The notes beneath the pieces were generated by a model that searched no databases, had not been told where the DNA came from, and was given only the letters and a program-made list of their open reading frames with translations. This document shows, one piece after another, positions 36,554 to 44,181 of a DNA stretch of 64,000 nt. The DNA is from Marine Group I thaumarchaeote (GTDB lineage: Archaea; Thermoproteota; Nitrososphaeria; Nitrososphaerales; Nitrosopumilaceae), in contig JACASX010000001.1 in the NCBI GenBank assembly GCA_013390745.1, forward strand, positions 124,001 through 188,000. The letters run 5' to 3'. A program made the translations under genes and the position numbers. Every line of letters starts with the position of its first letter. Positions within the stretch are counted from its first letter, which is position 1.

Positions 36554-37564
36554 ATGCGAATAATACTTTGTGGCTTTGGGGTTGTTGGTCAAAGTTTTGC
36601 AAAACTACTGGAATCAAGATCTGAAGATTTGTATGCAAGATATGGACTTAAACCAAGAATCGTAGGTGTGTTCGATAGAAATGGTAGCGCGATAGATCCT
36701 TCAGGTCTAGATATTAATAGATTAATTGATGTTAAAAAAAAATATAGTTCTGTAAAAAAGTACGCTGATATAAAAAATAGTATTTCAGGAATTGAAATAA
36801 TTAACGATTTGGAGGCAGAAGTTCTCATTGAGACTACTGAGAGTAACTACAAAGATGCTGAACCTGGAATGACGCATATTATTAATGCGATGAAACGAGG
36901 TATGCATGTTATTTCAGTAAACAAAGGTCCATTGGCACTTGCATTTCCCTCACTGATGGAGATTGCGGCATATAACCAAGTTCTTTTTCGGTTTAGTGGA
37001 ACAGTTGGTGGTGGTACACCAATTTTAGATTTTGCAAAAAATAGTTTAAGAGGTGAACGAATAGTTTCATTTTATGGTATACTGAATGGTACTACAAACT
37101 ATATCCTAACCAACATGACAAATGGTATGTCATTCAATGATGCTCTAGACGATGCTAAACAGAGAGGTTATGTTGAAGCAGATGAATCGCTTGACTTAGA
37201 TGGTCTTGATGCTGCTGCTAAGCTTGTAATTTTGGCAAACTGGATAATGGGAATGAAAGTTGTAATGTCTGACATTAAAAGAACTGGTATTAGAAAAATA
37301 GATAGTGCAAATATAAAACGTGCCGCAGAAAAAAATTCTGCAATTAAGTTGATTGCATCATGCAACAATGAATTGACTGTCGCTCCAAAAGAAATTCCCA
37401 CTGTTGATCCTTTATGTGTCAGTGGAACATTAAATGCAATTTCATTTACATCTGAGCACTCGGGAACACAAACCATTATTGGTCGTGGTGCCGGAGGTAT
37501 CGAAACAGCCAGTTCTATTTTACGTGATCTAATAGACATAAGAAATGAGAGCACAAAAACTTGA
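36554..37564 (+). CDS. hom: Homoserine dehydrogenase
   Basis: 336 residues. N-terminal Rossmann GFGVVGQSFAKLL, NKGPLALAF, the substrate motif GTVGGGTPILDFA..LNGTTNYILTNM, and GYVEADESLDLDGLDAAAKL. No ACT domain, so feedback by threonine through that module is not expected. It reduces aspartate semialdehyde in Thr/Met/Ile synthesis. The PUA gene starts in its stop (TTGA overlap). Confidence 0.94.
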   Translation: MRIILCGFGVVGQSFAKLLESRSEDLYARYGLKPRIVGVFDRNGSAIDPSGLDINRLIDVKKKYSSVKKYADIKNSISGIEIINDLEAEVLIETTESNYKDAEPGMTHIINAMKRGMHVISVNKGPLALAFPSLMEIAAYNQVLFRFSGTVGGGTPILDFAKNSLRGERIVSFYGILNGTTNYILTNMTNGMSFNDALDDAKQRGYVEADESLDLDGLDAAAKLVILANWIMGMKVVMSDIKRTGIRKIDSANIKRAAEKNSAIKLIASCNNELTVAPKEIPTVDPLCVSGTLNAISFTSEHSGTQTIIGRGAGGIETASSILRDLIDIRNESTKT

Positions 37565-38037
37565 AATCAAATCTAATATCAAAAAGTGAAACCGCTAAAA
37601 TATTTGAGGCATTAAACACACAATGGAAAATAGAAGTGCCTAAACAAAAAAATGTGAGAACACATCAAATAGATGAAAAAGGAGTTATAATAACTGGTAA
37701 TGGAGTAACCGCAGTAAAAATAGGTGAAGACATATTGCCTTTTTTGGGCGATGTTCCAATTTTAGAAAAATTTCCATATGTGATAGTTGACATGGGTGCC
37801 ATCAAATTCGTATGCAAGGGCGCAAATATAATGAGGCCCGGTATTACAAAATTTTCTGATTTTGAAAAGGGTGAGATAGTTTGTATTATAGAAGAATCAC
37901 AGCATAAATTTTTAGCCGTAGGCAAGGCAGAAATTCCAAGTAAACAATTAGATGAAACAAAAAAAGGTGAAGTGATAAAAAATATGCATTATATATCAGA
38001 TATTTTTTGGGAATCTGAAAAAGAAATAAAATACTAG
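37561..38037 (+). CDS. PUA-domain RNA-binding protein
   Basis: 158 residues: an N-terminal pre-PUA segment (about 1-75) and a C-terminal PUA domain (about 76-150: YVIVDMGAIKFVCKGANIMRPGI, GEIVCIIEE, LAVGKAEI). The arrangement matches the archaeal MCT-1/Tma20-like group linked to translation initiation and ribosome recycling. TTG start overlaps hom by 4 nt. Its stop TAG shares the CTAG palindrome with the stop of psmB on the other strand. Confidence 0.85.
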   Translation: MKSNLISKSETAKIFEALNTQWKIEVPKQKNVRTHQIDEKGVIITGNGVTAVKIGEDILPFLGDVPILEKFPYVIVDMGAIKFVCKGANIMRPGITKFSDFEKGEIVCIIEESQHKFLAVGKAEIPSKQLDETKKGEVIKNMHYISDIFWESEKEIKY

Positions 38038-38633
38038 GAGATGTTTTCAGTAGTTTCTTTAGCGCCGTCTTTGTTCATCACTAAAACATCAATGTTATCG
38101 CCACTTGCTGAATCCCTCATGCTAGCAGCACGAACTGATTTCACAGCAAGATCAACAGCTTGTGCCTCAGTAAGATCCTTTTTGAATTGTGGATCCAAAA
38201 CGCCTAATGCTATTTCCGCTCCAGTGCCAACAGCAGCATAATCATCAGGTAGAATTGAGCCAAGTGGATCTAAAGTGTATATTGTAGGCTTACCAACTAA
38301 ACCACCCACAATAACTTGTGTCAATAACGGAAAGAACCTTCTTTCATACATCATGTTTGACATCATTTTTGCTACTGTGTTAGGTGGTACATCTCGTTTA
38401 ATCTCCATTCTTCTAATTTTAGCCAATGCTGCAATTTGCAATGAAAGAATCTGCATATCCGCAACCAGACCAGCGCATGCAGCACCAACATGAGGTGTAA
38501 TCACAAATGTCTTTTTGGTGGTTTTACTAACTACAAAATTACCATAAGCTATTCTGCGTTCGCTTGCAAAAACCACGCCCTCATTAAATGTAATACCAAC
38601 GGCTGTTGCACCTGGCATATACATTGCAGTCAT
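38034..38633 (-). CDS. psmB: Proteasome beta subunit, Thr1 apparently replaced by Ala
   Basis: 199 residues, Ntn-hydrolase fold of the 20S core. Aligned by eye to the Thermoplasma beta subunit (G|TTTVGI), this protein reads G8|A9-T10-A11-V-G-I, so the nucleophile position is Ala. The other catalytic positions appear conserved: Glu at 17 (ERR), Lys at 33 (TTKK), and RDSASGD. The propeptide is only 8 residues. A second, active beta subunit elsewhere in the genome would be expected, as in crenarchaea where a non-processing beta needs a partner. Alternatively Thr10 might serve after a shifted cut. Confidence 0.9.
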   Translation of the reverse strand: MTAMYMPGATAVGITFNEGVVFASERRIAYGNFVVSKTTKKTFVITPHVGAACAGLVADMQILSLQIAALAKIRRMEIKRDVPPNTVAKMMSNMMYERRFFPLLTQVIVGGLVGKPTIYTLDPLGSILPDDYAAVGTGAEIALGVLDPQFKKDLTEAQAVDLAVKSVRAASMRDSASGDNIDVLVMNKDGAKETTENIS

Positions 38634-38690: not shown

Positions 38691-40052
38691 CTAGCTAGAT
38701 CTAGCAAAGTTATCTAAGATAAGACACATACATTTCGTGGCTTTTTTTAGTAAATCAGTGCGTGTAAACTCGTTTGGAGAATGAATACGCGAAAATACGT
38801 ACGTAGATCCAATAGCAATGGCAGGTACATTTAGAATATTTGTAAATGCATGCATAGGACCAGTTCCAGCACTAGAAATACTCAGAAGATATTTCCCAAA
38901 TGATCTACGTGCGGCGTCTGTAACATCAGAGACAAACATATGTTGGGGATTTGTCCTTGCCGCAGCTTCACCATGATATATCTTAATTTCAATATCACCG
39001 AATCCTTTTTTCTTTAGATGGTGTTTTAATCTCATAGCCTGTTTCTTTGGATTCATTTTAGGTACCAGCCTAAAATCAATTTTTACACGTGCCTCAGCTG
39101 GTAGAACAGTTTTTGCACCTTCACCATAATATCCGGAAACTATTCCTGCTATATTGCATGTGGGTTCAGCAACCAGAGATTTTTTAACTTCAAGCCCAGT
39201 TTTGTTTCCTAAAAATTTCTTAATACCGTATTCCTTTTTGAACTCTTTCTCATCAAATGGAAATAATTTAAGAATTTTAATATCTGATTTGGCAAGAGGT
39301 TGTACTTCCTTATACCAATCCTTGATTAAGATTTTCCCTGATGAATCACGAAGTGTTTTTATGGCTTCAACTAAACGCCAAGCAGGATTTTTAATCAATA
39401 CGGCAAGACTTGAATGAGCATCCATCTTTGATTCCCTCAATGATAATTCAACATACAACAAGCCCTTCATTCCAAGATCTATGATTGGTCTGTTTTTACT
39501 ATCAACGTGTCCAAATTCCCATATCACTCCATCACATGAAAACTTCTTTCGATATTTTTTTAGATATTCTTCAATGTGAGCGCTTCCGGTTTCCTCCTCT
39601 CCCTCTATAACAAATTTGACGTTGCATGGAATGTCTCCAGTCACCTTTAGAAATGATGCAACAGCTCTTATTCGTGTAATCAACTCACCCTTATCGTCAG
39701 ATGAGCCTCTTCCATAGATTCTATTTCCTTTTATTTTTCCACTAAATGGATCCTCATCCCAAAGTTCAGCTGGTTCAACTGGCTGGACGTCATAATGATT
39801 GTAAAACAATAAGGTTTTGTTTGGATTTTTCTTTGATTTCACCTCACCATATACAATCGGTGGATAATCTTTCATGCTCAAGATTTCTGCGTTTATGCCA
39901 GATTTTTTTAATGTATTTTTGACAAGATTGGCACATTTTTTTATTCCTTGATTTTTAGCAGAAACACTTGGTTGTTGTATCAAGACACAAAGATCTTTGA
40001 TGAGTATGTTCATGTTTTTGTCAACATGCTGCAGAACTTTTTTAGTACTCAT
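38691..40052 (-). CDS. M20-family metallopeptidase
   Basis: 453 residues, di-zinc peptidase/deacylase. Zinc motifs: YNHYDVQP, GRGSSDDKGEL (Asp bridging) and EGEEETGS (catalytic Glu), then HSSLAV in the lid domain and a late ARTNP/AGTGPMHAF segment. It resembles cytosolic nonspecific dipeptidases (CNDP/DapE-like M20A). Starts inside the nnrD stop (ATGA), so co-translated with it. Confidence 0.9.
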   Translation of the reverse strand: MSTKKVLQHVDKNMNILIKDLCVLIQQPSVSAKNQGIKKCANLVKNTLKKSGINAEILSMKDYPPIVYGEVKSKKNPNKTLLFYNHYDVQPVEPAELWDEDPFSGKIKGNRIYGRGSSDDKGELITRIRAVASFLKVTGDIPCNVKFVIEGEEETGSAHIEEYLKKYRKKFSCDGVIWEFGHVDSKNRPIIDLGMKGLLYVELSLRESKMDAHSSLAVLIKNPAWRLVEAIKTLRDSSGKILIKDWYKEVQPLAKSDIKILKLFPFDEKEFKKEYGIKKFLGNKTGLEVKKSLVAEPTCNIAGIVSGYYGEGAKTVLPAEARVKIDFRLVPKMNPKKQAMRLKHHLKKKGFGDIEIKIYHGEAAARTNPQHMFVSDVTDAARRSFGKYLLSISSAGTGPMHAFTNILNVPAIAIGSTYVFSRIHSPNEFTRTDLLKKATKCMCLILDNFARSS

Positions 40053-41773: not shown

Positions 41774-41830
41774 AAGGTTAGATACCAGATTTGGTTATAT
41801 GTAATAATCTCCTTCTAAATGTGAATATTG

Positions 41831-41838
41831 ATATAAAT
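41831..41838 (+). promoter_or_regulatory. TATA-like box for pentapeptide-repeat gene
   Basis: ATATAAAT about 25 nt before the ATG at 41860; supports that start and a leaderless mRNA. Confidence 0.5.
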
Positions 41839-41859
41839 CGGTATCTAAAACCCCAAATT

Positions 41860-44181
41860 ATGTTGCTAAAAAATAATCTATCCGTATTTTTTGGAATTTT
41901 CTTAGTCAGTATGATATTAGTTCCTAATGTTTCAGCTCAAGAAGTAACAATACCTGATTGGATTAAGAACAATGCTGGATGGTGGGCAGGTGGATTGATA
42001 GATGATAATTCGTTTGTTTCTGGCTTACAATGGCTCATATCAAATGGGATAATGATTATACCACCAACGGAACAGGGAGCAGATGACGGAGGAAATGTCA
42101 TACCTGATTGGATTAAGAACAATGCTGGGTGGTGGGCCGGTGGATTGATAGATGATAATTCGTTTGTTTCTGGCTTACAATGGCTCATATCAAATGGGAT
42201 AATCATGCTTGAATCGGAAGTGACCAATCAAGATCCAGATGACGAGGGACGAATTGCCGGTGGAATTTTGACAGGTGAAAATTGTAACACGGAAATTGAC
42301 AAAGATGGTGATAAGGTTCCAGATAACCTAGATGCTGAAGGACCAATCGACTGGTCACATTGTACAATAGAAGGTCGTGATTTATCTAATCGTGATTTAT
42401 CTGGTGCAAATTTATCAGGTGCCAATCTATATGGAGCCGAGCTTGATAACACAGATCTTTCTGGAGCAGATCTTTCATACACAGTATTATACAAGGCAAG
42501 CTTGGCAAATACAGTTTTCACGGGAGCTAATCTGTCTTACGCAAATCTGTGTGGGGCAACGAATCCAGTTGTAAAAATGGACTGGCCTGGAGGAACATTC
42601 CATGAATATCGCTATCTTACTTTTGATTTTACAGACACTGATTTATCATATGCAGATTTTGATCATGCTCAAATGCAGGATGTAGTTTTAACAGATGCTA
42701 TAGTTAGGTATACTAATTTCCACGACGCAAACCTAGAAGGTGTAGACCTTTCTTACAAGGATCTAACTGGGACAATATTAACAGATACTAATCTTACTGG
42801 TGCAAATCTAGTTGGGGTTGACCTTTCTGGCAAAGACCTCACTGGAACGATACTAAAGGGTGCTGACCTTACTGGTGCAAATCTGGCTGGAGTTGACCTT
42901 TCTGGCAAGGATCTTACATGGACGATACTAACAAATGCTAATCTTGAAAACACTGTTCTTACTAATACGATCCTAAATTGTATAGGTAATTCTGTCTGTT
43001 CTACCATGAATCTAAATGATATGACATTAAATGGTGCTAATCTTACTGGTGCAAATCTTGATGGAGTTAACCTTGCTGGCAGAGACCTTACTGGGACTAT
43101 ACTAAAAGGTGCTGACCTTTCTAACAAGGATCTTACTGGGACGATACTAACAGGGGCTGACCTTACTGATGCAAATCTTGATGGAGTTGACCTTGCTGGC
43201 AGAGACCTTACTGGGACGATACTAAAGGGTGCTGACCTTTCTAACAAGGATCTTACTGGAACGATACTAAAGGGTGCTGACCTTACTGATGCTGTGCTCC
43301 CAAATGATTATTCTTTATCTGGAAATAATTTTCAAAAAACGGTGTTTGATGGAATTGATCTTTCCGGAAAAAACCTGTATGCCTCGTCTTTGTGGTCTGC
43401 TAGTTTCAAAAATGCAAATCTGAAGAATACAAATCTTAGCTATGCAGATTTGAGGGCATCTGATTTGACAGAGATTAAAAATAAAAGTATAGCTGGATCA
43501 GATTTGTCTAATACTTCATTTCTACTTGCAAATTTATCAGGTGTCAACCTAACTGATGTCATACTGGAAGGAACTAATTTCTGGAAGACAGATCTCTCAG
43601 GTGTGGATTTTACAGTTACAGCCAAGAAATCATATCATGGAATAATATTCAAGGAAGCTAACCTATCTAATTCAAACTTTGAGAGTGTTAATCTCTCACC
43701 CGAACAACTTTTTACTAGCGAATTCAAAAATGTAAAAAAGGATGTAATTGAAGCTGAATATTCTAATGGTTTGTCATTGTTGAAGGAACTTGGACTCATG
43801 GGATATGTTGAGGGCGTAGGATATATTGGACTTGATAACATACATATAATTTCTACAGAAGTTCGTGGAAATGATCTTGTTGTTAAATTTACTTTTTTCA
43901 ATAATTTTGTTGATGCAAATTTGGAAAATGCCAATTTTAAAAATGCTGGCTTGTGGCTTGTTAATTTTTATTCAGCAAATCTTACTAATGCAAACCTATC
44001 TGGGGCAGATTTAAGAAAAACATCACTCAACAATGCGGATTTGTCTAATGCAAATCTACAGGGGGTAGATCTTTCTGGCGCAGATCTTTCAGGCGCAGAT
44101 CTTTCTGGTGCAAATCTTTCAGACGTAATTTATGATCAAAATACAATTCTAAAATGTATTAACCATGATATCTGTAGATAG
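41860..44181 (+). CDS. Secreted pentapeptide-repeat protein with KNNAxWW repeats
   Basis: 773 residues. Signal peptide (VFFGIFLVSMILVPNVSAQE); two near-identical KNNAGWW repeats (about residues 31-115); a Ca-binding-like DKDGDKVPDNLD loop bounded by two cysteines; then long arrays of A(D/N)LxG pentapeptides (DLSGANL, DLTGTIL, GADLSGADLSGANLSD) forming right-handed beta helices, broken by a non-repeat insert of about 70 residues (about 625-690). An upstream ATG at 41791 would bury the signal peptide. Probably a surface or S-layer-associated protein; no enzymatic motif. The protease at 26988-28508 shares the N-terminal repeat. Confidence 0.88.
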   Translation: MLLKNNLSVFFGIFLVSMILVPNVSAQEVTIPDWIKNNAGWWAGGLIDDNSFVSGLQWLISNGIMIIPPTEQGADDGGNVIPDWIKNNAGWWAGGLIDDNSFVSGLQWLISNGIIMLESEVTNQDPDDEGRIAGGILTGENCNTEIDKDGDKVPDNLDAEGPIDWSHCTIEGRDLSNRDLSGANLSGANLYGAELDNTDLSGADLSYTVLYKASLANTVFTGANLSYANLCGATNPVVKMDWPGGTFHEYRYLTFDFTDTDLSYADFDHAQMQDVVLTDAIVRYTNFHDANLEGVDLSYKDLTGTILTDTNLTGANLVGVDLSGKDLTGTILKGADLTGANLAGVDLSGKDLTWTILTNANLENTVLTNTILNCIGNSVCSTMNLNDMTLNGANLTGANLDGVNLAGRDLTGTILKGADLSNKDLTGTILTGADLTDANLDGVDLAGRDLTGTILKGADLSNKDLTGTILKGADLTDAVLPNDYSLSGNNFQKTVFDGIDLSGKNLYASSLWSASFKNANLKNTNLSYADLRASDLTEIKNKSIAGSDLSNTSFLLANLSGVNLTDVILEGTNFWKTDLSGVDFTVTAKKSYHGIIFKEANLSNSNFESVNLSPEQLFTSEFKNVKKDVIEAEYSNGLSLLKELGLMGYVEGVGYIGLDNIHIISTEVRGNDLVVKFTFFNNFVDANLENANFKNAGLWLVNFYSANLTNANLSGADLRKTSLNNADLSNANLQGVDLSGADLSGADLSGANLSDVIYDQNTILKCINHDICR
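41950..42203 (+). repeat. Near-identical 104-bp duplication (150-bp period)
   Basis: 41950-42053 and 42100-42203 differ at only two bases in about 104, encoding the two KNNAGWW units. Synonymous sites have not drifted, so the duplication is recent or kept by gene conversion. Confidence 0.85.
43051..43290 (+). repeat. 120-bp tandem units in pentapeptide array
   Basis: The stretch beginning GCAAATCTTGATGGAGTT at 43051 recurs at 43171 with few changes, each unit coding eight pentapeptides. It indicates expansion of the beta helix by 40-residue steps. Confidence 0.75.

Follow-up and report, generated by a model that had tools for sequence, protein, structure and literature searches.

A proteasome beta subunit with alanine at the catalytic threonine place in a Marine Group I thaumarchaeote, a probable structural partner of an active beta

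The locus and the proteasome genes of the host genome

The window, a stretch of 64,000 nucleotides from a Marine Group I thaumarchaeote genome, carries on its minus strand a psmB-like proteasome beta gene without Thr1 (38034..38633 including the stop codon), which was delineated by its open reading frame, a profile match and alignment. The frame runs from an ATG at 38633 down to 38034 and encodes 199 amino acids; the plus strand over 38034-38633 holds many stops. We use B1 for this gene and for the clade of nucleophile-less betas to which it belongs, and B2 for the Thr1 beta paralog of the same genome (locus L001, protein P0002). A gene for a PUA-domain protein (37561..38037, plus strand) converges with B1 and overlaps it by 4 bases, the shared palindrome CTAG at 38034-38037 supplying both stop codons; a gene for an M20-family peptidase (38691..40052, minus strand) lies 57 bases upstream of B1 on the same strand. 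Both are conserved neighbours, the former not a proteasome part: among the 63 named loci with full flanks, the PUA gene adjoins B1 in all 63 and the M20 peptidase gene is near it in 62, as are genes for a homoserine dehydrogenase (61) and a hydrate dehydratase-like protein (63). Further along the window, 41791-44181 encodes a 796-residue pentapeptide-repeat protein, in which a segment near the N-terminus, IPDWIKNNAGWWAGGLIDDNSFVSGLQWLISNGI, occurs twice in near-identical form. A scan for sigma-70-type promoters, a pattern unsuited to those of archaea, returned fewer sites than did shuffled sequences.

B1 scores 164 bits against Pfam PF00227 (cut-off 22.4), and thus has the proteasome subunit fold. 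Against NCBIfam TIGR03634, the equivalog profile for archaeal proteasome beta, it reaches 204.4 bits, below the curated cut-off of 224, which B2 passes narrowly at 224.6 bits. Its nearest counterparts among solved chains belong to archaeal betas. These are 6z46_H and, in second place, 1pma, which we take to be, respectively, Saci0662 of the Sulfolobus acidocaldarius proteasome (6z46) and a chain of the Thermoplasma proteasome. An AlphaFold2 model, for which 16 close relatives were supplied, reached a mean pLDDT of 44.4; this quality is poor, and no structural claim made here rests on the model.

With residue places numbered on the Thermoplasma beta sequence, translation and alignment divide the start of B1 into an eight-residue leader (MTAMYMPG, 38610..38633), ending in the conserved Pro(-2)-Gly(-1), and a mature part that opens with Ala9, whose GCA codon (38607..38609) occupies the catalytic Thr1 place; Thr10 (38604..38606) is at place 2. 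The motif is thus PG/ATAVGI, the slash marking the boundary between places -1 and 1, and the Thr1 which follows Gly(-1) in catalytic betas is replaced by Ala after Gly8. The acidic residue at 17 and the Lys33 of catalytic betas are in place (Glu25, Lys41), as is Arg19 (Arg27), and the RDSASG segment (residues 173-178, 38100..38117) supplies Asp166 (Asp174) and Ser169 (Ser177), with Gly at place 170. Place 129, Ser in Thermoplasma, is Thr (Thr137), so that the Ser129/Asp166/Ser169 set is present in two of its three members. The same alignment confirms the first-pass annotation, which named no strand, in its placing of Ala at the Thr1 position (as G/ATAVGI) and in its statement that Glu17, Lys33 and RDSASG are kept. 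Its view that only the nucleophile has been lost holds for Glu17, Arg19, Lys33, Asp166 and Ser169, but not for Ser129.

The host genome, a draft of 1.08 Mb and 86% completeness, has four PF00227 genes, namely B1, two different alphas (L002 and L004), by virtue of which the outer rings may be mixed too, and B2, which is on a different contig from B1. The alignment with the genome's own paralog that had been proposed as a check gives Ala at place 1 of B1 and Thr in B2, which reads HG/TTTVGI and has Asp17, Lys33 and Ser129, but Asn166 and Thr169. The B1 gene is under purifying selection, with dN/dS of 0.04-0.16 against four close relatives (more distant pairs being saturated or erroneous).

Age and conservation of the Thr1 loss

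Betas were gathered from genomes of the window genome's class and phylum, including Marine Group I, Nitrosopumilus, Nitrosopelagicus and other named relatives as well as Sulfolobales-like rows, which together point to the GTDB Thermoproteota as the phylum sampled. The 282 distinct beta frames were typed by score as closer to B1 (161) or to its paralog B2 (110), the remaining 11 being an extra type, beta', treated below. Typed in this way, every one of the 161 B1-type frames lacks Thr1, having Ala in 153, Gly in 7 and Ser in 1; Thr1 is present in 109 of the 110 paralog-type frames, and the exception, L171, has almost the same score with either query and groups with B1 in the tree. All seven Gly1 frames (L063, L080, L086-L090) come from a single family, f12, in most rows of which Arg19 has gone as well; judged by these residues, the nucleophile-less site is drifting further in that family. 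One tally, the count of Asn166 by family, defined B1 by residue 1 itself, and claims about residue 1 therefore use only the score-based typing and the tree.

The tree was built from 133 rows without the trait columns (residue 1 and residues 165-170), and Thermoplasma is its only row from outside the phylum. All 64 rows without Thr1 lie on one side of a single branch (SH-aLRT 97), with one state change, a pattern that suggests a single, ancient loss of Thr1 for the phylum as sampled. The two betas have also been retained together. At thresholds of E 1e-61 or better for B1 and E 1e-50 or better for B2, the Ala1 beta was found in 111/116 genomes of the family and in 47/47 others from the order, the Thr1 beta in 115/116 and 44/47, and both together in 155 of the 163 genomes of the order; the five family genomes without a B1 match are all drafts of 30 to 180 contigs. 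Two oddities emerged from these loci. Genome G095 has two nucleophile-less copies (L203 and L204, both PGATAVG), a duplication which could be a strain mixture in the assembly; and a contig from an assembly that bears the name Marinoscillum (L213) encodes a beta 98% identical to the archaeal B1 of the window, so that assembly is probably contaminated.

These data bear on whether the Ala codon might be an artefact of assembly or sequencing, or B1 a decaying gene. The incompleteness of the host draft leaves some room for such an account, but Ala stands at place 1 in independent relatives across class and phylum, among them contigs that are 98% and 93% identical, which excludes sequencing error, and the low dN/dS speaks against decay. 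We regard either as exceedingly improbable.

The Sulfolobales-like locus L157, which reads LEELPATAIGI, and the 6z46_H beta both fall in the Ala1 branch, and the two are identical over the 189 residues that follow the Met of the latter. B1 thus shares with the Sulfolobales subunit both its descent and its lack of Thr1. The solved chain begins Met-Thr-Ala-Ile-Gly (MTAIGI), i.e., it is truncated just ahead of the Thr, and we infer that it is the Saci0662-deltaN construct. According to PMC4569737, the alpha subunit of S. acidocaldarius assembles with truncated Saci0662 into a 28-subunit barrel devoid of activity, and a Thr in Saci0662 is equivalent to T1. Were that equivalence to extend to B1, the subunit would be active in a shifted register, its leader cut after Ala9 and Thr10 serving as the N-terminal nucleophile. 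Conservation is in part compatible with this account. In a divergent set of 68 nucleophile-less rows, among which the window's family was limited to 8, and 70 Thr1 rows, the former are invariant at Thr2, Lys33, Asp114 and Asp166 (68/68), with conservative variation at places 17, 129 and 169. However, all 70 Thr1 paralogs likewise have Thr at place 2, without its being their nucleophile, and no alignment gap shifts Thr10 to place 1. If 6z46_H is indeed the deltaN construct, moreover, then the inactive barrel has already tested that register, the published T1 is residue 2, and the native residue 1 is Ala, which would explain the inertness. Activity in a shifted register therefore seems very improbable.

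Asn166 in the probable active partner and an additional alpha'/beta' pair

The 70 divergent Thr1 rows are invariant at Thr1, Asp17, Lys33 and Ser129, and divided at place 166, where 43 carry Asp and 27 carry Asn. Asn166 is found in 66 of 109 Thr1 frames overall, and together with Thr169 it marks all 47 from the window's family and 19 of the 20 from the order's other families; Asp166 is kept by all Thr1 frames from outside the order (23 from the class, 19 from the phylum). Asn166 is not fixed throughout the order, as family f9 (L191) keeps Asp166 and Ser169. The tree requires four changes at place 166 in a poorly resolved region, and a single origin of Asn166 is unsupported. A covariation filter, by which the commonest residue had to exceed 90% in the Asn166 group and fall below 25% in the Asp166 group, was passed, apart from 166 itself, only by places 20, 48, 163, 168 and 173, and no acid has been gained at any of these five; hence no compensation for Asn166 was identified.

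On these alignments, the 20S of the order, to which the ammonia-oxidising archaea belong, might, in most sampled families, be composed of two incomplete betas, one with an invariant Asp166 and no nucleophile, the other with Thr1 but with Asn166 and Thr169. In that case the sole ordinary Thr1 beta would lack the acidic member of the Thr1/Ser129/Asp166 proton shuttle, and might be slow, differently tuned or compensated. We offer this as a tentative possibility, to which we assign less than even odds. In yeast, as described in PMC4792962, the beta5-D166N mutant still has its leader cut and loses much of its activity; the Asn166 of B2 is a natural counterpart of that mutation, and makes the role of the acid testable in a natural enzyme.

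Among 17 genomes that drew attention by unusual numbers of subunits, 11, all within the order, carry an adjacent extra alpha'/beta' pair (L082, L193-L202), and so have another Thr1 beta beside the Asn166 one. Its beta' is leaderless, starting M/TT, and keeps the full catalytic set of Asp17, Lys33, Ser129, Asp166 and Ser169; removal of the Met would expose its Thr1. The N-terminus of alpha' has diverged, with no Proteasome_A_N match in the one alpha' tested. By its residues the pair looks like a second proteasome. The draft genome G112 has the nucleophile-less beta (L149) and the alpha'/beta' pair (L201), and no ordinary Thr1 beta was found in it. The pair was not found in the PF00227 gene set of the window's own genome, and the reading of B1 is unchanged by it.

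A probable structural role in mixed rings

Taken together, the alignments and the comparison with S. acidocaldarius indicate that B1 is very probably a non-catalytic, structural 20S beta, a scaffold beside an active Thr1 beta, a reading to which we assign a probability of about 0.86. Its descent in common with Saci0662 and the same loss of Thr1 predict a scaffold beta in mixed rings, both the rings and the function being extrapolated from S. acidocaldarius. With Ala at the Thr1 place, B1 should be unable to remove its own eight-residue leader or to cleave peptides; it most likely sits within the two inner heptameric rings, where it would contact the alpha rings and carry the barrel, and B2 would self-process at HG/TTT in the same rings and supply the proteolysis. 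PMC4792962 reports that yeast beta subunits with the T1A change are inactive and retain an uncleaved leader, from which we expect the leader of B1 to remain attached, or else to be trimmed off by an adjacent subunit, for which B2 is a candidate. Against a purely scaffolding function stands the invariance of Lys33 and Asp166 across the 68 divergent B1 rows. An inactive site would hardly seem to require so much conservation, although the two residues could be kept for structural reasons. The absence of a B1 match from five of the 116 family genomes, all drafts, also counts against the scaffold reading.

B1 might otherwise form a separate non-proteolytic barrel or an assembly platform, sharing no rings with the Thr1 beta. 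The stability of the S. acidocaldarius barrel of alpha and truncated Saci0662 alone, together with the location of B1 and B2 on different contigs, gives this proposal some appeal. PMC4569737 nevertheless reports that the catalytic beta, Saci0909, failed to assemble when alpha was its sole partner, and that alpha, Saci0662 and Saci0909 together gave a stable, active complex, in which Saci0909 was present at the lower ratio. A separate barrel is accordingly very improbable, and a scaffold beta in mixed rings agrees with the structural beta beside an active one that the first-pass annotation had suggested; the Thr1 paralog, the retention of both betas in 155/163 genomes, the clade of 6z46 and the S. 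acidocaldarius reconstitution all support it.

Beyond PMC4569737, we found no earlier report of thaumarchaeal or phylum-wide betas without Thr1, in a search that covered subscription journals thinly, and a term search of PMC12909875 and PMC5666114 returned nothing on such betas. The present comparison extends the inert beta of Sulfolobus, the one that has been studied biochemically, to a seemingly single old event across the sampled phylum, and suggests that mixed rings in which active sites are the minority may be the norm in that phylum, not a peculiarity of Sulfolobus.

Three systems provide a frame for B1. Pyrococcus furiosus likewise has two archaeal betas, of which PsmB1 is reported in PMC3605417 to be indispensable for reconstitution of the 20S; since an inactive form of PsmB1 was made there by the mutation T7A, this subunit has a catalytic Thr, unlike B1, and is not of the nucleophile-less kind. 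The place of B1 beside an active beta can also be compared beyond the archaea. In eukaryotes, beta3, beta4, beta6 and beta7 are non-catalytic subunits that build the ring beside active ones, as proposed for B1, but each has a fixed place in the seven-subunit ring. The closest counterpart is Saci0662, of whose inert kind B1 is a further example: the two belong to the same branch of the tree (through L157), have Ala at place 1 (LPATAIGI in L157), keep Glu17, Lys33, Asp166 and Ser169, and each occur in a proteome that also has a catalytic beta. They differ in that Pro at -1 and Ser129 of the Sulfolobales sequences correspond to Gly and Thr129 in B1, and in that assembly and inertness are established for the Sulfolobus protein and predicted for B1. 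Comparison with B1 suggests, in turn, that the residue taken for T1 in Saci0662 stands at place 2.
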